From Isoetes taiwanensis (taxonomy: Eukaryota; Streptophyta; Lycopodiopsida; Isoetales; Isoetaceae), in the NCBI GenBank assembly GCA_021234155.1, contig JAJEKV010000047.1, forward strand, positions 5,545,071-5,609,070: DNA of 64,000 nt, read 5' to 3'. The position numbers and the translations under genes were made by a program. This document shows, piece after piece, positions 3,220 through 62,726 of the stretch. How positions within the stretch are numbered: position 1 is the first letter of the stretch; each line of letters starts with the position of its first letter. The notes below the pieces were generated by a model that did not search any database, was not told the origin of the DNA, and saw nothing but the letters and a program-made list of their open reading frames with translations.

Positions 3220-5079
3220 CTAAAGACTTACATTAGTCTTATGAAGTAATCGAAGTAAGGATTGTTGTGTTATGTTGGTTAACATATGAAAAGGTGTTTG
3301 CTTTGATATAATTTCATCACCAGTCTCTATCTTCAGATAATGCGAGCTAAGTCTCATGCGAGCCATCACATGCCTAAAATGCAAGGAGACGCCATCAGAT
3401 AAATACTTGGCTTCTGTAAGCCCGGGATTTATTGATGTACGGTAGAATAACATCTTAGTCTCCAGGGTCCTCCATAACTTTTCATATACACGTTCTGTTA
3501 CTAACTTACGTACATCTTCTTTACTGCCCATTAGTCCATCCAAGTTCATGTTCCATTTCTTTAACCAGACATCCGCATCATGACACCATCCCTTGTCCCT
3601 GCTAGCATGCATAGCAATATGTGGTAGGCGATCGCCTTCCATGCGACAAACTTTGGCAACATATGCCGCAAATTGCAGTATAGCTTCCCCTTCCAAAGGG
3701 AGCAGCCCTCCTTCTGCTAACATCATGGCATATGGTGTTTGCATTTTGACACCTAATTCAGAGTATAGAAATTTTTTTTGCAGTTTCTCAATTGCTAACC
3801 ACAGATTAGCTGGAAGACTCGGGCCCCAAACCTCACATCCATATAGGACTACCGTTTGGACCGAAGTCTTAAATAGCGTCCTTTTCATTGACCAATCCCA
3901 CAAATAGCTCTTCCTACATTGTCTCTGGAGTGCACACAAGGCTCTTAAGCCATTGCTGCACCTTTGCTCAATACATTGGTTCCACCTATAATTATTTTCA
4001 AAGATGATCCCTAAATATTTGAAGGAAGTCACTGTCTCCAGCTGCTGCCCTTTATAATAGAATACATGCTTGGCAAGCGTGCCCACCACCATAACTTTTG
4101 TCTTGGAGATATTCACCTCCAATCCAGTTTTATCACAAAATGCAGCCAGAATATCCAAATGTTTATCCAATCCTTGTTTCGTCCTTGCAATGAGGACTAC
4201 ATCGTCTGCATACAACAATAGGGATATCACATGCTCAGCTAGAATTGCTCCTGGACCACCATTATACAGAATCCAATCTTCAAGTTCATCTATAAAGATT
4301 CCAAAGAGTGTCGGGGAAAGTGGGCAGCCTTGTTTCACCCCAATATTGCTAATTATGCATTGCTTGCAGATATCAGACTAAGGTCTTGAGAGTTCCACCA
4401 GGACTTTTTCATATAGTTTCTGAGTAGTTGTTCTTAGCTCAAGCAGAACATTCAAAACATCCATTCGGTCCCACAGTTTTTCACGAGGCACTGTGTCAAA
4501 TGCCTTAGTATAGTCTACAAATGCCATAAACAGCGGGTTTTTCTTCCCCTTCACATTCTCCACAATAGCTCGCAAGGTGACCAGCTGATCTATGGTGGAA
4601 TATTGAGGCCTAAAGCATGCCTGCCCTTTGGCTCTCACTCCAGTCTCCTCCGCCCAAGCACTCAGCTTTCCTTCAATAATGGTGGCAAATAGCTTAGCCC
4701 ATAGGTTGTTTACCATAATTGTCCGATAGTTATTTGGATCCGATACATCTCCTCCTTTAAGCACCGGCACCACTCTACTGCATTGCCATTCTGATGGAAA
4801 CCCCTGTCGCATCACTTTATTAAACATTCTGCAAATAAACTCTACAATCGTATCACCAGCCCACTTAACCAGTTCAACAACCAGCCCCAAACTATCAGCA
4901 GCTTTATTATTTGCTAATCTCTTAATGCCACAGCATATATCGTCCACCGTGAAGATATCTGTGTCCCAAGCCAACAGTAGTGTCTGCTCCTGTATATCAG
5001 CCCGATGATAAAGCTTACGCACATGAGTGACCAGCATATCACATGACAATGTATTCTCCCGGCATTTCTTTGCTTTCAA
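3220..5079 (-). pseudogene. LINE ORF2 reverse transcriptase (broken by a stop)
   Basis: The first block (5079-4378) carries a GQACFRPQYSTIDQL-type motif (residues 152-166) and AFVDYTKAFDTV (186-197), which holds the first catalytic Asp. It stops at 4378. Reading continues in the second block with GVKQGCPLSPTLFGIFIDEL, the template-grip motif, and LLLYADDVVL with the catalytic YADD at residues 43-46 of the 4338-3220 frame. Further on come YLGIIFENNYRW and VLYGCEVWG, typical of the thumb and C-terminal part of LINE polymerases. The protein ends without the CxxC..HxxxxC knuckle seen in the neighbouring copy, so its 3' end is diverged or deleted. Confidence 0.92.
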
Positions 5080-5140
5080 CCTATTCCAAAAGCGTTTTGG
5101 CTCGACAACCCAATCCTTTAATAGCTGCCACTGCCTATCC

Positions 5141-5353
5141 TTAATATAAGTCCTCTTTTTTTCTTCGTGTTATTCTTTTGTACTCCAGCAACAACTCTTT
5201 TTTATTTGCTTCCGAAGCCAACACAAATTTTTGGCGTGCCAACTTGCAACTTGTGTCAAACCAAGAGTTACACGGTAAGCCTTTTGCTGCTCTGTTAGAA
5301 TGAAAGCATAAATGGGCAGCCTGCACTAGGGCTCTGGTAATATCTGCGCTCAT
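5141..5353 (-). pseudogene. LINE ORF2 linker between endonuclease and RT
   Basis: This short frame (70 codons) lies between the endonuclease and RT blocks of the LINE. It contains LPCNSWFDTSCKLARQKF, the usual 'WFD..C' segment found just before LINE polymerases. It has no separate function and is part of ORF2, cut off on both sides by frame changes. Confidence 0.8.
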
Positions 5354-10275: not shown

Positions 10276-12474
10276 TTATGGATATTTTACCGTTTTCAAA
10301 GCTTCTGCAACAGCAAGGGGATCGACCTTGGTCTCAGGAAATTTTGTGTTGAGAAATTTATTGCTGATGAGGTGAACAAGTTTCTCTTTCTTAAATCCAT
10401 TGTTGTGGAAAGTCTGGATTAAAGAGAAAATTTCAAATAGACATGCCTCTGTTGTATTACAATAATAAAGCAGAGGTATAGCTTGGGAGATAATTACTTT
10501 GTAAGCATTATTCATTGGTCTATTTGAAGATAGCCAAATGAATTGTGCATACTTAAAGGGCAAGAGTCTTCTCTTGTCAAATTTGGTGAGAAGATAAGTA
10601 CCAGACCTGGTATCAGTGATGGTAATTTCTAGACTCAAAAAATGTGCCATGTTACATTGGTTTTCATCATTACTCAATGTAATTGCATCAGACTCTGGTT
10701 TAATCTCCAGGATATCAAGGGGATAAATGGAGAACGGGTCTTCTGGATTCACCTTTGTACCACTTTTTAGAAATTTGAGCATGTAAGAATTATTTATACT
10801 GCAAAGATCATCAATGAACCTGTACGTTGTTTTGAAAAGGGAAAGAAGATCTTTCCTCCCTAGTCGTGCTAGTTTAACAATAAATTGGAATTCATAATAG
10901 GCCAAGTATAAGTTGCACCAAATTGGTGAACAACTAAAGCCCATAGGGATTCCTTTTATCTGCTTCCACGCCCTATCACCCAGTCTAATAAATGCATTGT
11001 TAATAAGCCATTCATTCATCATAAAAATTTCAACATCTCCAATACACTTCCAATTTTCCGACTTGAAGGAGATGCTTTTCCATTCCACATAAGGTGGACC
11101 ATTGTGTCTCATTTTAAGGTATAGCCTTCGTTTAGATTTTTTAGCAAATGAGACTGTGTTTGAAATGATCCATTTAAGCGCATTACTGAGGCTATCTTCC
11201 CCTTGTAATGGGATCATTTCATAACATCTCGTAATGTCACCCACAAATATATTATAGATATGTGGTGGAAGATTAAGTGCGACTTCCATGGTAGATTTGC
11301 AACACCAAAAACTTGAGGTGGTTGTTTGGAGAAAGTTTTTTATGGAAACGTCATAGCTCAAGGTTTTCTCCTGCCACATTTCCATAATCTCATTCAAAAT
11401 GCATGTAATGAGACTGGCTATTTCCGAGAACATACAATTAGCTGCATTTGTTAGCCAACGTATCGTATTTTTGTGGGGTTTATATACTCCCATTAAATAC
11501 GGCAATTCATAGTTTCTTATTTCCACCTCGTTGAATTTGTCACTTAGATCTGTTAAAATATCTGAGGAAACGTCTTTTATGGACATCCAGGAGCCATCAG
11601 ATAAAGTACATGGTATGAAATCTGGGCTACTTAATCTTTGTATTGCAAGTTTCCGTAAGTAGTACTTGCAAATAAAAGAAGGTGTAGTGGCAGATTTATC
11701 AGTACCAGCTACATGAATATGCGTCTTTAGCCAGCTAACTTCATCGAGTGCTCTAACATCCTTGAGAATGTCAGAAGCTTTAATATGTTTTTTTCTAAGA
11801 CATGATTTGATAGCCCTTTCAATGTATTGGGTGGCATTTTTTAGCTGGTCAATGGTAGTATTGACTCCATTTTGCCGTAGGATATCTGTGAGATCATGCC
11901 ATCCATGAAGGATTGCATTGACGATTTCCTGAATGTCACAAATTCTCAGAGGTATATGATTCAACCCCTTATCAGTTTCTTTTCTTAACAAATCATGATG
12001 AATGATATTTGAGTCCAGAGTGAGTACATGTTCCCCTAAGGGTTCACAATCTTTTAAGAAATTGTTAAATCTCTTAATTTTGACACACGTACAAGTTTGA
12101 AGTGTTTCACAATTGAAATCACAAAATGTATCCTTTGGTGTATACCAGATAGAAGCAATGCTCTCTGTATACTTCCATCCAAAGACAATTTTGTCCCATA
12201 AATCTGATCCAGCAAAGTCATCAAAGAAATAAATCAGTGTTTCTTTGAAAAGATCCCGTACCTTTATATGTTCCAGAGCTCGTGAAACATAAAGAATGTG
12301 AACATAGAAATGCTTCTCACCTTGAATGGGAACGATGTGTTTTCTCCCATATTTTATTATCACCTCTTTATTTTCAGCAACTTCTTCATTCTCGTTCAGG
12401 GCAAATCCTGGCTGTAACATCATGTTACCATAACTCGTATCACCCTGCATTATACAAACCTGCATAATATACAA
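10276..12474 (-). CDS. Penelope-like reverse transcriptase, ORF2 (732 codons, intact)
   Basis: This open frame encodes the polymerase of the retroelement. Visible order: CTC/C-rich segment with FCDFNCETLQTCTC (118-130); EHVLTLD and GLNHIPLR (148-177); a DKS motif in HVAGTDKSATTPSFICKYY (254-272); YLMGVYKPHK (326-335); palm motif A, VGDITRCYEMIP (411-422); motif B, KGIPMGFSCSPIWCN (507-521); motif C, YRFIDDLCSIN (551-561) with the catalytic DD; and motif D, HFLSLEI. The carboxy part is FDKRRLLPFKYAQFIWLSSNRP. No GIY-YIG endonuclease, RNase H, integrase or recombinase is visible. There is no internal stop. The first codon of the open frame is TTG, and an acceptor-like 'ttatgcag' lies at about 12462, so the true 5' end may be a splice junction; Penelope-like elements are known to keep introns. 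Confidence 0.85.
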   Translation of the reverse strand: MYIMQVCIMQGDTSYGNMMLQPGFALNENEEVAENKEVIIKYGRKHIVPIQGEKHFYVHILYVSRALEHIKVRDLFKETLIYFFDDFAGSDLWDKIVFGWKYTESIASIWYTPKDTFCDFNCETLQTCTCVKIKRFNNFLKDCEPLGEHVLTLDSNIIHHDLLRKETDKGLNHIPLRICDIQEIVNAILHGWHDLTDILRQNGVNTTIDQLKNATQYIERAIKSCLRKKHIKASDILKDVRALDEVSWLKTHIHVAGTDKSATTPSFICKYYLRKLAIQRLSSPDFIPCTLSDGSWMSIKDVSSDILTDLSDKFNEVEIRNYELPYLMGVYKPHKNTIRWLTNAANCMFSEIASLITCILNEIMEMWQEKTLSYDVSIKNFLQTTTSSFWCCKSTMEVALNLPPHIYNIFVGDITRCYEMIPLQGEDSLSNALKWIISNTVSFAKKSKRRLYLKMRHNGPPYVEWKSISFKSENWKCIGDVEIFMMNEWLINNAFIRLGDRAWKQIKGIPMGFSCSPIWCNLYLAYYEFQFIVKLARLGRKDLLSLFKTTYRFIDDLCSINNSYMLKFLKSGTKVNPEDPFSIYPLDILEIKPESDAITLSNDENQCNMAHFLSLEITITDTRSGTYLLTKFDKRRLLPFKYAQFIWLSSNRPMNNAYKVIISQAIPLLYYCNTTEACLFEIFSLIQTFHNNGFKKEKLVHLISNKFLNTKFPETKVDPLAVAEALKTVKYP

Positions 12475-12479
12475 AAAGG

Positions 12480-14555
12480 ACTAGAGAATGAGATCTGCAT
12501 AAATGAGGACAACATTACATATGATTCAGCAACTTATTACAGACATCCCTTTGTTGTGTTGCCATAAAAGCGCTCATGTTTGAAAGATCAGCAATGCATC
12601 TGTTATGAAAAAACCAGTAATGCAACAAATTAAATGTTGTTAGATCCTACCAGCTTCTGAGTTGCCCATCTATCTCCATATGAAGGATATTTCCTGCATG
12701 AAGGAGCATAAATAACCTCTTGCATGTCAGAGATCCAAACTTTTGATGAACGAGCTGGTAGTAATAATAGTCATAAAAGTTGGACACATACTAAAAGCTG
12801 CGACTTTCCATCATAAGCGCAGGTAATCAATGTTGTTTGATTCAGCAATGGGTTGGAAAAGTTGAGAATATCCACCATAAGCTCAGGTATTGCTTGTTTC
12901 AGGAAAAGGCCAGTAATGGATTGAAAAACCCAGCTATGCAACAGTATTAGTTTATAGCCAGCTCTAAAACTTATGTCCGTCAAAGTTAGCCACCTTCTGA
13001 ATTGCCCACCCATCTCCATATGAAGGATATTTCCATCATAGGCGCAGGTAATAATTAATGCTTGATTCAGCAATGGGTTTGAAAAGCTGAGAATCTCCAA
13101 CATAAGCTCAGATGTTCGTTATTGCCTGCTTCAGGAAAAGGCCAGCCATGGGTTGGAAAACCCAGCTGTGTATCAATATTGGATCATAGACAGCTCCAAA
13201 ACTCATGTCCGTCAATGTTGGCATGAAGAAGCATGGATAACTTCCTGCATGTCAAGGTCTACAGCCAAAAATTAAGGCAATTATGATATCATATTGAAAA
13301 CATCCTGTTTACCGAACTGGTGGTGCCTAAAAGGTTATAATAGGCTGGACGTCATAAAAGCTAGAAGACAGTATTATGGTACTGCAATATAGTTTTGTAT
13401 TAACCATCATCATTGAGCATAAATATATGCCAAAACATAAAACATTACCATAAGCGCAGTTGCACAAATGAATAAATGTTGTTACATCATACCCATCTTC
13501 TGAATTGCCCACCCATCTCCATATGAAGGATATTTCCTGCATGAAGGAGCATAATAACCTCTTGCATGTCAGAGATGCAAACTCCTGATGAACGAGCTGG
13601 TAGAAAAATTTGTCTCAGATAGTCATAAAGGTAGGACATCATGTCAAAAGCTGAGAATTTCCACCATAAGCGCAGGTAATAATTAATGCTTGATTCAACA
13701 ATGGGTTTGAAAAGCTGAGAATCTCCACCATAAGCTCAGATGTTCGTTACTGCTTGCTTCAGGAAAAGGCCAGCCATGGGTTGGAAAACCCAGCTATGCA
13801 TCAATATTGGGTCATAGACAGCTCCAAAACTCATGTCCGTCAATGTTGGCATGAAGAAGCATGGATAATTTCCTGCATGTTTAGGATGAGCTGGTGGTGC
13901 CTAAAAGGTCATAATAGGACGTCATAGAAGCTAGAAGACAGTATTATGGTACTGCAACATAGCTTTGCATTAACCATCATAAATATATGCCAAAACACAA
14001 AACATTACCATAAGCGCAGGTATTTGCTAGTTTCAGGAAAAAACCAGCAATATATTAGAGAACCCAGCTATGCATCAGTTTTAGATTGTAAACAACTCTG
14101 TCAGTCTCTGATGGCATGAAGAAGCAAGGATAATCTATTGTATGACAAGGATTACAGCCAAAAAATGTAAGGTAATCATGTTGAGAACGTTTAGAAGTAT
14201 TTCAACAACTTCTTCAACGAGCTGGTAGTGCCTAAAAAAGACATAACGGGCTGATCATCGAATAGCATAGGGATTTATAGCTGATATGACAGTTTATGGT
14301 ATTGCAACATTTACTTTGCATTAACCATCGTCATTGAGCACAAATACATGGCAAAACACAGAATAGTAAAAAAGGACACCTGTGATATAGGCAGACTGAA
14401 GGCATTCCCATTTATTATTTGTTTCATAACAGACATAGCTAGAAAAACTTCAGAAAATATTGGATCAGATTCAAGCCAACAAATAGCTAGATCTGAGACA
14501 TTTCATAAAGTTGAACAGTAAAAGATATTTACTGTCACAATTTGCACATTCCAAA
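12480..14555 (-). repeat. Inter-ORF region with imperfect direct repeats
   Basis: Several modules recur here. 'GCGCAGGTAAT' blocks lie near 12819, 13043 and 13671, with a partial one at 14015. 'AGGAAAAGGCCAG' blocks lie near 12900, 13133 and 13756. A longer block with 'TGCATGTCAGAGAT' recurs at about 12722 and 13563, and the stretch at about 13040-13255 recurs at about 13668-13880. No frame longer than about 110 codons or known domain is seen. It separates ORF1 from ORF2 and is either a long structured spacer, duplicated intron sequence, or a regulatory region. Confidence 0.7.
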
Positions 14556-20459: not shown

Positions 20460-23415
20460 TTGCAAGAAACATCTGACAAATTGTTATTGGAAATCTACAG
20501 GGTTTATAGATTCACACGGATGAAGCGTCAAACGGGCCTTATGCAGTTCTTGTCTAAGAGGGTGGATTCGGTTGGTACTTCGACCTCTTCTAGCACTCAA
20601 GTTCCTCAAGATTCATTAAGCAAGGATAGTGCGATTGGTGATCTTCCTTCTGAGAATGTGGAAACTGAAGTTCCTCCATCATCACCTAGTCATAACGAGC
20701 CAGTGCAACAAGATGGAGGTGGCATTGGTACTTCGCAATCGAGCAAGAAAAGGAAGAAGAGGAAGAGTGAGTATGTCATAGGCCGTGCATTTAAAAAAGA
20801 GTGGTTGGCTGAATTTGCAGAGATAGAGTCAGTTATAAGAGACGGAAAAGAGCATGTTATGTGCAAAGTTTGCACATGGGCTAACAAGAGGGAGCATCTT
20901 ATCCAATGCAAGTAACGATAACATCCTCAGAAGCATCATGGTAAAAAGAAGGTGATGAAGGAAGACGCCAATGGTAAATCTTATGAGATTGTTGAGTTTC
21001 TTGCTGATAATAAGCACCAAAAAAATTTGAAAAAGTATGAGATGCACATGTTGCAAGTTAAACAGTTTGAGGAAAAATCTACACACTTCCATGTGATGTT
21101 TTCTGAGGCAGATAAGAAAGAGTTTAAAGTCAAAAGCATTCAAATGAAAGCTATTTTTTTCTTGCTTAAGCGTGGGAATCCGGAAATGAGAGAGTTTTGT
21201 CTTTCTAATGAGTTAGCATCATGTCCATTGTATCATTGGTCCATTCCGGCAGGTTGGGAGTTTGCTAGTTTTATGAATGAAGCCTTGAAGATTGACCTTC
21301 GTACCATGATACAAAAATCAGAATTTCTGTCATTGTCTTTTGACGAAGTTACTGCTATTGATAATACTAATTGGGCTGCCATGCATTTATATAATGTAGT
21401 GGATTATCAACGTAAATCCCACTTTCTTGGCATCTTCAAGTTGAGTTTGAGTTCTAATGCTGAGACACTCTATAATATAATTGTAGACCATCTCTCTAAT
21501 GTTGCAGACATGAGCGCAAGAGAGTGTGCAAACAAGCTTATTTGTTTTGGTGCTGATGGCGCATCCGTGATGCAAGGCAAGAGATCTGGATTAGGGGTTA
21601 GAATTCAAAATGAATTAGCTCCCTACATGCAAGTGATACATTGTATGAGCCATCGTACCAATTTGGCGTATAAGGTACTTTCTGATTTTTCATTATCAAC
21701 AAAGTAGAATTACTTGTACGTAAAGGCATACAAATTCTTCTCCAAAAGTCCTCAAAGATGTGCAAAGATTCAAATCTTTAGCGTATAGGGTTAACAGATG
21801 GTAAGAAGATTTTGAAAAATGTCACAACAAGGTGGATATCTTTATATGGTCCTGTGAAGAGATTGTGTGAAGAATATGCATCATTGGTTGCATGCACAGA
21901 CGAACTCTCAAGTAGTGATGATGGAGCAACCGTGAATAGTGCAACTGAGCTTTACAATCTTTTGGTTGATGGAGAAACCATATTTGCATTGTTTGCATTG
22001 GAACCTTTGCTTCACAAACTTCATTACTTGATATCAATTTCACAGGATGGTAACATCTTCATACCCGAGTACAATATTGTAAGAAAAGGAATGCAGTTTG
22101 AGATTGAAAATTTATTTGTTGATAATACATTGGATGGGAAGAGTTGTTTCCAACGCCACAAGGAGTTCACTTATTGGAGAAAACTTGTACACATTGGGTC
22201 AACCGAAAGTTTTCTTGCCTACAATTACAATGGAAGGCTAAGTGTTCATGCTAAAGGAAAGTACATGGAATTAACCTTAAAAAAGCCACGGGGGAGAAAC
22301 AATCGTCTTGTTAAATCTGATTTTTTGATGGAGGATTTCGGGAACGTAGTTGACAAGGTGAAATTTCAAATGTTAGAGGTACAAATTCCTCCTCATCTCA
22401 TGATTATTTATGATTATTTACAATGTTTTAGCTCTTCTTTGTGATGTTTACCTTCAATTTTATATTTTACATTTTTCTCAATTTTAGGATGATAATGAAA
22501 ATCAGGTTCTTGATTTTTTCTGAATTTTCTGATTTTTCTGAATTTTTCTGATTTTTCAGGATTTTCTGAATTTTCTGGATTTTTCCTATTTTTTTCTGGT
22601 TTTTTTCAGATTTTTTTAAATTTTCAGAATTCTTTTTTCAGAATTTTTTTTTTGCAGAATTCTTGTGATAATATGAAGTGTGCAATTCAACTAGATTTTG
22701 ATTTCTTTTATTGATATGCAGGCTGCAAATGCATTAGCAGATGAGCTTCGATCTCGTTTTCCACCAGATGATGTTTTGGACGCCATAGGCATTGTTTTCC
22801 CACATACATGGAGTCATGCAAACTCAAGTGCAAGTATTCATAAGTCTTTTCAAGCAAAATCAACGGTAATAGAAAAGTATTTTTGTTGTGACAAAATTTT
22901 TGTTGATGGCCGCATTAATGGGCTATTGGATTATGATAAGTTGAAAAGCACAAGCACCTCTTTTTGGTGATACAATGTACAAGCAATTTGCTCACCTTGA
23001 GAAGCCAACAGAGTTTGGAGCTGTGACTCGTCTATGGCAAAAGCTTGCTTCTAATAGCTTATTACGCGTGGCAATCTCTGAGTACTTTAGACTCGCAGAG
23101 CTTTGTCTTTGCATGGTTTTGGGAAGTGTTCAAGATGAGAGGTGCTTCTCCACGATGAGTTTTGTGAAGAACAAGCTTAGAAATAGGCTTGATGATAATC
23201 TGGACGCTACATTGAGATTGTATGCATGTGATTACGATCTATATACTTTTCCATATGAAAGGGTATTCGAACTTTGGAATGATGCTTGCAAACGCAGATC
23301 TGTAAGTAGAACATATATGGTGGATCATGAGAGTACTTCGAGGATGCCTTCTGAAGTGCAGACAGATGGTGGTGACAAAGAAGAGCATACGAGCACCGTA
23401 TTTTTTATTCGTTGA
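20460..23415 (+). pseudogene. hAT transposase, ZNF862/KIAA1586-like type, broken
   Basis: The reading frames are 20460-20911, 20952-21704, 21812-22441, about 22713-22967 and 22975-23412. The first ends in a zinc-binding MCKVCTWANKREH block and two TAA stops (about 20912 and 20918). The second has LSFDEVTAID (first catalytic Asp), CFGADGASVMQGKRSG (second Asp) and HCMSHRTNLAYK (CxxH). The last carries the dimerisation segment LGSVQDERCFSTMSFVKNKLRN with LRLYACDY. A frame change at about 22965 separates SFW from LFGDTMYKQ. The arrangement is that of hAT transposases. Several stops and frame changes are not explained by obvious introns, so the gene is dead. Confidence 0.88.
22480..22665 (+). repeat. 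T-rich TTTTCTGA-type tandem repeat in hAT transposase gene
   Basis: A run of degenerate TTTTCTGATTT/GAATTTTCTG units of 8-16 bases lies between transposase coding blocks, just before the continuation at about 22713. It probably sits in an intron whose acceptor is near ATGCAG at 22718-22723. Confidence 0.75.
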
Positions 23416-61020: not shown

Positions 61021-61059
61021 GTCGATTGTCTCTGCGATCCCTGTTTCAGATTCGAAGCT

Positions 61060-61691
61060 AGAAGGCCTTGCATGTTTCAGATTTGGAGCTAGACGGCCTT
61101 GCATGTTTCAGATCAAGTCTTGCATGTTTCAGATTCGGGGCTAGAAGGCTTGATCCATCTCAAATCGAGGCCTGATCCACCGCAAATCGAGGCCTGATAC
61201 ACCGCAAATCGAGGCCTGATCTCAAATTCTTGCTTTGCACAGGCCGGATTTGGCCATATAAGGAGCTAAACATGCATTATTGGCCTTGCATGCTCTCCCA
61301 CAGGGCCGATTCATCTCAAATGGAGGCATGCTTGCTCTGGACATGCCGGATTTAGCCATATAAGGAGCTATTAGACGTATTATCGGGTTGCATGCTCTCC
61401 CACAGGCCTTCTTCATCTCAAATCTACTCATCCTTGCTCTGCACAGGCCGGATTTGACCATATAAATTTCTATAATTGCATGCTCTCCCACAGGCCTTCT
61501 TCATCTCAAATCTACTCATGCTTGCTCTGCACAGGCCGGATTTGACCATATAAATTTCTATAATTGCTTAATCACAGGTTTAGACTGTCGAATTTGTATG
61601 GAGCTCATTTGCACAGGCCGGATTTGACCATATAAATTTCTGTAATTGCTTAATCACAGGTTTAGACTGTCGAATTTGTATGGAGCTCATT
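61060..61691. repeat. Tandem minisatellite of about 80-115 bp units
   Basis: The array begins with three copies of a short CGCAAATCGAGGCCTGAT unit (61140-61222). Longer units follow, each with CTTGCT(C/T)TGCACAGGCCGGATTT, GACCATATAA and a variable tail, starting near 61229, 61330, 61431 and 61519. Two nearly identical 82-bp units (about 61528-61609 and 61610-61691) close the array. The last unit borders the MITE. Confidence 0.88.
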
Positions 61692-61783
61692 TGTAACATC
61701 TATAACAGGGCAGATCTGTGCATAGCTGAACCAAATCATGAAATGCCTCTCCAACTTTTGTATTGTAGGGGAATGAAAATTGG

Positions 61784-61960
61784 TGTTGAGAAATGAGCCT
61801 TCTATGATTGGGTAGACAGGCTGGGGATTGAACCCAGGACCTCTTGCTTGCAAGCCAAGTACTCTACCACTGAGCTACCGGCCCATTAATGGGCTTTCGG
61901 CACTCCTCCACTGAGTCATTCTTTATGTGTGCCCATTACACATACTCTAACATTCCAACA
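61784..61960 (-). repeat. TRIM 3' LTR (177 bp)
   Basis: Minus-strand start TGTTGGAATGTTAGAG (61960 down), end CATTTCTCAACA (61784). It holds the tRNA-like sequence 61814-61884. It differs from the 5' LTR by about ten bases, mostly inside the anticodon arm. Confidence 0.95.
61814..61884 (-). tRNA. tRNA-Ala(TGC)-like sequence inside 3' LTR
   Basis: 71 nt on the minus strand. 5' acceptor GGGCCGG faces CCTGTCT with six of seven pairs counting G-U, including the G3:U70 pair that marks alanine tRNAs. The D stem is GCTC/GAGT. Anticodon arm: CTTGG-CTTGCAA-GCAAG with anticodon TGC and four of five pairs. The T arm is CTGGG-TTCAATC-CCCAG, a perfect stem. A box TAGCTCAGTGG and B box GGTTCAATCC match the Pol III consensus. 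No T run follows, so a Pol III terminator is not evident. Because the same sequence lies at the same position in the other LTR, this belongs to the retroelement and is not a host tRNA gene. Confidence 0.85.
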
Positions 61961-61969
61961 TTCCCCCTT
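61961..61969 (-). other. Polypurine tract of the TRIM
   Basis: AAGGGGGAA on the minus strand, directly next to the 3' LTR start TGTTGG. This is the plus-strand primer site expected of an LTR retroelement. Confidence 0.85.
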
Positions 61970-62307
61970 AATATTCCAGCCTTCACCACAATCCACATGC
62001 TCCCCTCCTCGGGCAACTCCACCACTGCGGGAGTTGGGCTTTCACTGGCCAAGCTTTGCTCATTCTCACCCCTACACCACTGGCGGCTGTCCCCCCAGGG
62101 GATTCACATTTGATCAGCGTATAACCATGAGAGTTCAACGGAGGGGTGTTTTTTGGACCATTTGCGTACGTATACTTAGGGGTTAGGGGTGTTTTTAGGC
62201 ACTGATTTGGAGCAATATCTATACACAAAGGGGTCAAATTGCCTTTTAAAATTGCGTACACAAGGGGGGTTTTTTGCTACCCTCCGAACGCAGATGCCAT
62301 ACCCCCC

Positions 62308-62429
62308 TTATATATAAGTGCACCCCCCGGGGCTGTCCCGGTGCGATTAAGCACCCTTTACATGGGACTTATATATAAGTGCACCCCCCGGGGCTGTCCC
62401 GGTGCGGTTAAGCACTCTTTACATGGGAC
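62308..62429. repeat. Two tandem 61-bp units inside the TRIM
   Basis: Units 62308-62368 and 62369-62429 start TTATATATAAGTGCACCCCC and are nearly identical. Each has GC-rich CCCCCGGGG and TGTCCCGGTGCG words. They lie just inside the primer site, where packaging or dimerisation signals of LTR elements usually sit (inference). Confidence 0.93.
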
Positions 62430-62431
62430 CA

Positions 62432-62445
62432 TGGCTCTGATACCA
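62432..62445 (-). other. Primer-binding site for initiator Met-tRNA
   Basis: TGGTATCAGAGCCA on the minus strand, directly after the 5' LTR end at 62446. It is the complement of the last 14 bases of plant tRNA-iMet. Confidence 0.93.
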
Positions 62446-62622
62446 TATTGAGAAATGAGCCTTCTATGATTGGGTGGACAGGCTTGGGATTGAACCCAGG
62501 ACCTCTTGCTTGCAAGATTAGTACTCTACCACTAAGCTACCGGCCCATTGATGGGCTTTCGGCACTCCTCCACTGAGTCATTCTTTATGTGTGCCCATTA
62601 CACATACTCTAACATTCCAACA
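62446..62622 (-). repeat. TRIM 5' LTR (177 bp)
   Basis: Exactly the length of the 3' LTR. Minus-strand start TGTTGGAATG (62622 down), end TTTCTCAATA, one base off the inferred CAACA end. It contains the second tRNA-like sequence. Confidence 0.95.
62476..62546 (-). tRNA. tRNA-Ala-like sequence inside 5' LTR, anticodon stem decayed
   Basis: 71 nt at the same place as in the 3' LTR. A box TAGCTTAGTGG and B box GGTTCAATCC are kept. The acceptor and T arms are kept apart from a few changes, but the anticodon stem reads CTAAT/GCAAG with only two or three pairs. It is unlikely to fold as a working tRNA, while the Pol III promoter boxes remain. Confidence 0.8.
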
Positions 62623-62726
62623 ACTGGTCCAGCATTCCCAGTTTGTCGGTGACCCGCTCCCGGATACCGCCGGTCGCGGGACCTTACCGGCAAACTGGGA
62701 ATGTTGTCCCAGTTTCCATTCCCCTA

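Follow-up and report, generated by a model that had tools for sequence, protein, structure and literature searches.

The window, by which we mean the whole stretch of Isoetes taiwanensis DNA analysed here (64 kb), contains a short LTR retroelement with a tRNA-like unit in each of its two LTRs (Table 1). Its sense strand is the minus strand, which makes the LTR with the higher coordinates the 5' LTR. The first-pass annotation of this DNA had described two 177-bp LTRs with a tRNA-like unit at the matching position in each, and Rfam bears this out, with tRNA scores of 59.9 bits (61884-61813) and 43.1 bits (62546-62475) against a gathering score of 29. The unit occupies LTR positions 77-148 in both LTRs, in the sense orientation of the element, and is 72 nt long in Rfam, one more than the 71 nt first given. 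ARAGORN detects only the better unit, that of the 3' LTR, as tRNA-Ala(tgc). The A and B boxes had been called intact; box-like stretches are present, but the A box of the 5' LTR (TAGCTTAGTGG, compared with TAGCTCAGTGG in typical copies) and the B box of both LTRs (GGTTCAATCC, compared with GGTTCGATCC) are each altered by one base. The A box was identified by its motif, as also given in the accessible text of PMC10886601, and L022 and L023 were left out of the LTR comparison that gave the box positions.

Most of the remaining anatomy is as it was first described. The 5' LTR is followed by the primer site TGGTATCAGAGC, which we take to be of the initiator-Met tRNA type, the interior ends in the polypurine tract TTAAGGGGGAA, and the element (61784-62622) has no open frame reaching 120 aa, in agreement with its description as non-coding. 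The termini are TGTTG...CAACA, as claimed, but the 5' LTR of this copy ends in CAATA. A 5-bp target duplication had also been claimed; the flanks of the window copy, CCAGT and CCAAT in the sense direction, match at only four of five bases.

The two LTRs are identical at 169 of 177 positions, and six of the eight differences fall in the tRNA part. The interior is 485 bp long, and not 193 bp, because it contains a nested repeat of about 240 bp and a 61-bp tandem duplication. At least 39 other places in the genome match the interior at 96-98% identity (best 40 of 1805 candidates scored), all of them spanning about positions 109-358 of the query, that is, the nested repeat. The LTR differences, the four-of-five duplication and the disturbed interior together imply that this copy is an old one that has been disturbed. 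A word-7 BLAST search gave no further LTR copies inside the window.

Several other features lie nearby. Nested tandem repeats with units of 22-102 bp (61042-61693) directly adjoin the element. Remains of an RVT_1-type reverse transcriptase, LINE-like by eye, are found at 3220-5169 (minus strand), and long open frames at 10276-12480 (minus) and 20460-23415 (plus), pieces of which gave no Pfam match when tested; by eye these two regions resemble a further retroelement and a transposase. The window also encodes a DUF936-family protein, with a Selaginella moellendorffii homologue among its best matches.

Table 1. Features of the element and its flanks, in window coordinates
Feature	Position	Strand	Remarks
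Whole TRIM element, Helenus type	61784..62622	-	839 bp
5' LTR	62446..62622	-	177 bp
3' LTR	61784..61960	-	177 bp
tRNA-like unit of 5' LTR	62475..62546	-	Rfam 43.1 bits; missed by ARAGORN
tRNA-Ala(TGC)-like unit of 3' LTR	61813..61884	-	Rfam 59.9 bits
A-box-like stretch, 5' LTR (LTR 84-94)	62529..62539	-	1 base altered vs typical copies
B-box-like stretch, 5' LTR (LTR 127-137)	62486..62496	-	1 base altered vs typical copies
A-box-like stretch, 3' LTR	61867..61877	-	
B-box-like stretch, 3' LTR	61824..61834	-	1 base altered vs typical copies
Primer-binding site TGGTATCAGAGC	62434..62445	-	Directly after 5' LTR
Polypurine tract TTAAGGGGGAA	61961..61971	-	End of interior
Interior	61961..62445	-	485 bp, against 193 bp in typical copies
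Nested high-copy repeat in interior	62094..62331	-	Interior positions 115-352
61-bp tandem duplication in interior	62307..62429	.	
Flank ATTGG	61779..61783	.	Half of 4-of-5 target duplication
Flank ACTGG	62623..62627	.	Other half of 4-of-5 target duplication

The family in the Isoetes taiwanensis genome

An LTR search of the source genome, as had been proposed, brought up further copies. In the I. taiwanensis assembly (1,658,258,908 bases in 1110 pieces) there are at least 41 matches, including the window's two, at 95-100% identity (best 40 of 506 candidates scored). Short patterns of unequal length give the following counts: 143 places for 26 bases across the LTR end and primer site (up to two mismatches; 69 exact), 320 for a 30-mer of the tRNA core (up to three; at least 100 exact) and 224 for a 33-mer of the upstream LTR (up to three; at least 64 exact), with 0 for the control in each case. 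With at least 41 LTR matches in the genome and none for the pattern controls, the element is more than a product of chance.

For closer study we took 29 stretches matched by the LTR and a junction set of 60 stretches covering 63 of 100 listed places with the LTR-end/primer-site pattern; L039 and L054 are one locus, and L032 has no complete LTR. The typical copy is 547 bp long (177 + 193 + 177). Perfect 5-bp duplications flank 14 of the 17 loci with at least two complete LTRs (one of these, L037, probably duplicates L017) and five of the 12 loci with one; the three exceptions among the 17 are the window copy, with its four of five, and the array segments L024 and L027. For the junction set, 13 of 26 loci with both outer ends readable have perfect duplications, where re-pairing predicts 0.6. 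Tandem LTR-interior-LTR arrays also exist, for example L024, L052 and L071. Ten of 55 two-LTR elements have no base difference between their LTRs (gaps not counted). This TRIM family of Isoetes is young, and the window element is a decayed copy of it.

The tRNA-like unit is present in other members of the family. Of the 35 units that Rfam finds in 20 loci, 25 score 62.3 bits and the others 34.1-62.2. ARAGORN recognises a tRNA in 110 LTRs out of 150 (105 times as Ala(tgc)) and none in the other 40. It had been asked of other members that they carry the tRNA inside the LTR, and in all 20 previously unseen stretches picked by the tRNA core alone LTR sequence surrounds the core, although some of these LTRs are shortened. 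A CAA triplet lies just upstream of the unit, at LTR 73-75 of the typical copy; plant Pol III genes start at CAA-type triplets.

That the unit was copied recently from a host tRNA-Ala(TGC) gene is not supported, since only 54 of 73 columns are identical. The host tRNA-Ala genes have undergone an expansion of their own, with 151 matches to a core sequence, most of the 100 listed ones lying close together in clusters on C66, C232, C926 and C921. For the related Isoetes sinensis, the accessible text of PMC10541799 gives 8,975 annotated tRNA genes. The LTRs of the TRIM family may account for some of these, and tRNA gene counts in Isoetes more generally may include tRNA-bearing LTRs.

State of the tRNA-like unit at insertion

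Is the tRNA-like unit better conserved than its flanks, as the first-pass annotation expected of a functional one? On raw divergence it is not. Across 103 LTRs of the junction set (from 59 of the 60 stretches), compared with one reference copy, the tRNA part differs by 5.35%, the upstream LTR by 5.64% and the 15 columns after the unit by 8.6%; raw conservation was thus rejected as evidence for selection, the tRNA part being so close to the upstream LTR. The expectation does hold when what was present at insertion is told apart from what changed afterwards. The two LTRs of an element are identical when it inserts, so positions at which they agree record the insertion state, and positions at which they differ record a later change or an assembly error.

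For this comparison a clean set of 27 elements was used, all gap-free and with no more than 13 differences within the pair, thresholds that were chosen after looser results had been seen. The remaining 28 of the 55 two-LTR elements were dropped for any gap, for more than 13 differences, or as L050 and L060, and L037 was omitted from all two-LTR analyses as a likely duplicate of L017. In the clean set there are three distinct insertion-state variants over the 72 tRNA columns, compared with 18 in the 76 columns upstream (one column counting twice) and eight in the 15 columns that follow the unit (one column twice). Changes between the LTRs number 41, 27 and 22 in the same three regions. The difference in insertion-state sites per column between tRNA and upstream parts gives a Fisher P value of 0.0007. 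When only C-to-T and G-to-A changes are counted, the tRNA part has two insertion-state sites to 33 later events and the upstream part 12 to 13 (P = 0.0003). The tRNA columns outside the boxes carry one insertion-state variant over 50 (P = 0.0006). With up to three gap bases allowed (30 elements) the values are 0.0007 for sites and 0.0006 for deamination-type changes; for all 53 usable elements, with 16 tRNA sites and 33 upstream, they are 0.0085 and 0.0008. These P values are uncorrected for the number of tests, a single copy served as reference, and the copies are related to one another. Assembly errors raise the later-change counts rather than the insertion-state counts.

An event-based count over all 55 elements (P ∼1e-22) was set aside in favour of the site-based and clean-set counts, because the events it counts depend on one another and some are probably errors of assembly; some differences between LTRs do look like such errors. 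An apparent tRNA subfamily (L050, L060, L085, L086 and L088), in which CTCAGTGG reads TTCGATGG or similar, was likewise rejected. It is a probable systematic assembly error, because some copies alter the second CTCAGTGG of the LTR too. The tRNA changes show no clear asymmetry between 5' and 3' LTRs of the kind expected from copying errors (94 versus 120, P = 0.09).

The whole tRNA unit therefore looks conserved in copies that transpose. On our reading of the LTR pairs, copies that transposed would have had a nearly unchanged unit over its full length, and this extension beyond the promoter boxes bears on what the unit is kept for. It could be retained for a folded RNA, serving in processing, export, packaging or strand transfer, with the RNA itself made by Pol II. 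The single insertion-state variant outside the boxes fits such a role, as do the acceptor stem of the typical copy, which pairs at six of seven positions, its T arm, which pairs at five of five, and its UGC anticodon, together with G3:U70 and A73, which are alanine identity signs. However, the anticodon stem pairs at only four of five positions, with one G.G, the acceptor stem has its one mismatch, and the bare unit at minimum energy does not fold into a cloverleaf. Moreover, the accessible text of PMC10886601 names Cassandra, the nearest analogue, as the sole TRIM of Pol III type to have been validated. We regard a folded-RNA role combined with Pol II transcription as unlikely, and prefer transcription by Pol III from the unit.

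Recombinants with Copia and a proposed life cycle

Where might a non-coding element find its enzymes? Four junction stretches combine the tRNA-bearing LTR and primer site with a different interior: L039 and L054 (the single locus mentioned above), L041 and L077. Of these, L077 was not counted as a recombinant, its interior being an inverted, distant Copia fragment. The L054 locus is a composite of about 5.2 kb at C963:10554-15763 (L054/L099), also present on C109 (L039/L098); the two versions are treated as one locus because they have flanks in common. The composite starts with a tRNA-bearing LTR, followed by the primer site and a Copia gag-pol with Pfam matches to gag, CCHC knuckles, integrase core and RVT_2. 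Its gag-pre-integrase match falls just below the Pfam cut-off, and its RNase H part was recognised by eye, without a Pfam match. After gag-pol come the purine tract belonging to this Copia and ∼258 bp from the start of its own LTR, then about 11 nt ending in TTTCAACA (by eye), the primer site, the TRIM interior and a second tRNA-bearing LTR.

The same Copia is found at C1059 (L103; 96% protein identity) with its own tRNA-free LTR, the first 258 bp of which match the Copia-LTR part inside the composite at 82%. ARAGORN found no tRNA in nine other Copia loci (L103-L111), five of which reach the primer site, the LTR being partly covered or not covered in the others; the Copia search from which these derive scored the best 64 of 24,944 candidates. 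Further junctions of a tRNA-bearing LTR with a Copia gag occur in L041 (C907, a short piece), L023 (C1081) and L070 (C1038). L023 has Pfam matches to gag and CCHC, and the Copia parts of L023 and L070 belong to one lineage (92%). An exact pattern of the tRNA-bearing LTR end with a Copia-type continuation occurs at four places, which are three loci, with 0 for the control. Two stretches taken at guessed places, where the L023 and L070 composites might terminate on the 3' side, contained no LTR or Copia match. The window has Copia remains of its own at 177-1900 (RVT_2), which in short pieces are 66-76% alike to the composite's Copia.

It might be objected that the composite arose through faulty assembly, or by insertion of one element into another, and so is uninformative as to a helper. 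The shared flanks do reduce it to one locus, and the assembly has error-like spots. Both contigs show the composite, however, and it lies between two copies of GAATT, a perfect 5-bp duplication. A single inserted base separates its outer LTRs in the C963 version (small differences are more numerous in the C109 version), and tRNA-bearing LTRs are joined to other Copia gags on C907, C1038 and C1081. A nested insertion is also at odds with the sequence before the internal TRIM part, where by eye nothing of an upstream TRIM LTR is present beyond the ∼11 nt. We judge either form of this objection to be quite improbable, and take the composite as a natural recombinant.

The order of its parts would fit a single switch of template, from the RNA of the TRIM to that of Copia, while the first strand was being synthesised in a particle common to both. 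The TRIM family and the coding Copia elements are linked by the recombinants, the primer site, the purine tract and the termini; at the boundary of purine tract and LTR start, Copia L106 has cattaaggggag followed by TGTTGGAATT, compared with cattaagggggaa followed by TGTTGGAATG in the TRIM. From the recombinants and the likeness to L106, this Copia clade is the likely helper of the TRIM family. The chimera demonstrates shared reverse transcription at most, and not that Copia moves the ordinary copies.

These observations suggest a life cycle. Judged from the sequences, we think it likely that the window element is a decayed copy of a young Helenus-type TRIM whose RNA is made by Pol III, primed by initiator-Met tRNA and copied by Copia enzymes acting in trans. 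Pol III would initiate transcription at the tRNA unit within the 5' LTR and read through the element, presumably to a downstream terminator, so that the transcript would both begin and end in LTR sequence. Initiator-Met tRNA would then prime reverse transcription at the primer site, with reverse transcriptase and integrase supplied in trans by the resident Copia clade, whose machinery would insert the cDNA with a 5-bp duplication. Copies with a damaged tRNA unit would leave few offspring, because the unit would drive (or shape) the RNA; after insertion, the unit would decay like other DNA. Thirteen canonical copies have no run of four or more T in the sense strand, and this was considered as a sign of Pol III read-through. 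It was discarded as not significant, since 64% of dinucleotide shuffles of one copy also have no such run, and it neither supports nor excludes read-through.

More tentatively, the two strands of evidence may be joined: a Pol III-promoted TRIM may need its whole tRNA unit to transpose, and may hand tRNA-bearing LTRs to coding Copia elements by template switching in shared particles, giving them a Pol III promoter. We consider this possible, but doubtful in its entirety. If true, coding LTR retrotransposons would gain a Pol III promoter from a miniature retrotransposon.

The unit could instead be a passive passenger, a tRNA or SINE that once landed in an LTR and has since been copied along without function. 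Such a history would agree with the raw divergence of the tRNA part, which is about that of the upstream LTR, and with the way the units change after insertion, as much as their surroundings or more. It would not account for the dearth of insertion-time variants, which is seen in the 27 clean elements and persists in all 53, by sites and by deamination-type changes alike, nor for the equal score of 25 of the 35 units, and it is very unlikely. That a single tRNA gene or SINE inserted by chance in one LTR and was gene-converted to the other can be dismissed, the unit being at the same LTR position in all other copies examined.

Comparison with known elements

The first-pass annotation knew of no description of such an element. 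Such elements already have a name, Helenus, given by Kojima in 2024 (PMC10886601) to TRIMs with tRNA-derived sequence in their LTRs, from fungi, animals and, in the accessible text, one plant, Selaginella moellendorffii. The Isoetes elements resemble them in the tRNA-derived sequence of both LTRs, supported by Rfam and by the 20 extra stretches; in size, with 547 bp for the typical copy and 839 bp for the window copy within the 311-1263 bp reported there; and in having LTRs, a primer site and a purine tract. Like the Helenus elements described, they are non-coding, with a typical interior of 193 bp, the recombinant Copia copies being a separate, rare case. The 5-bp duplications reported for Helenus of plants and fungi are found here at 14 of 17 and 13 of 26 loci, with four of five bases in the window copy. 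The conserved boxes given for Helenus, A (TRGCY, YGG) and B (GGTTC), correspond to TAGCT...TGG and GGTTCGATCC in the typical Isoetes copy, and fungal members are tied to Copia in the same source. We file the family as Helenus because it has the features tested. It is a new Helenus family in Isoetes, assigned by its features; the Selaginella element Helenus-1_SMo has an LTR of 120 and an interior of 85 bp, compared with 177 and 193 bp in Isoetes. No description of a Helenus-type family in Isoetes was found in the open-licence literature.

The kind of element has therefore been ordinary since 2024; what is noteworthy, and goes beyond the accessible text of PMC10886601, is how well the tRNA unit is conserved at insertion time, together with the natural TRIM-Copia recombinants. 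That text calls Pol III transcription of Helenus unproven and infers the role of the tRNA from its conservation; the insertion-time selection test was made for the Isoetes family and does not appear there. In its view, moreover, a Pol III-type TRIM is unlikely to have a long stretch of LTR in common with an autonomous partner. The tRNA-free LTR of Copia L103 agrees with this view, whereas the Copia recombinants with tRNA-bearing LTRs disagree with it.

Two other groups are less close. SINEs derived from tRNA likewise place a tRNA-type promoter on a short non-coding retroelement, but lack LTRs, a primer site and a purine tract. They differ also in depending on non-LTR retrotransposons, as PMC10886601 puts it in its accessible text, and the same text describes Ajax, a nemertean TRIM that has a Pol III promoter piece in its LTRs and 5-bp duplications, as in Isoetes, but is 5S-derived and known from two nemerteans.

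The parallel drawn at the outset with Cassandra, and its 5S rRNA sequence, is a sound one: both are plant TRIMs with a Pol III gene in the LTRs, here of tRNA type. In the accessible text of PMC7215508, the Cassandra search pattern uses the same primer site, TGGTATCAGAGC, and tandem LTR-interior arrays are described, as in the Isoetes family. Cassandra differs in carrying 5S rRNA instead of a tRNA and, as reported, in having Pol III terminators in its LTRs. Membership of Cassandra was rejected, as Rfam, applied to the window with gathering scores as cut-offs, gave the two tRNA matches only and no 5S. The partners of Cassandra, and hence its helper, are called unknown in PMC7215508, and the role of the Helenus tRNA is inferred from conservation in PMC10886601, as far as the accessible text of each goes. 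Both questions can be addressed in Isoetes and tested in one plant, because there the family is young, shows a population-type sign of selection and has formed recombinants with Copia.
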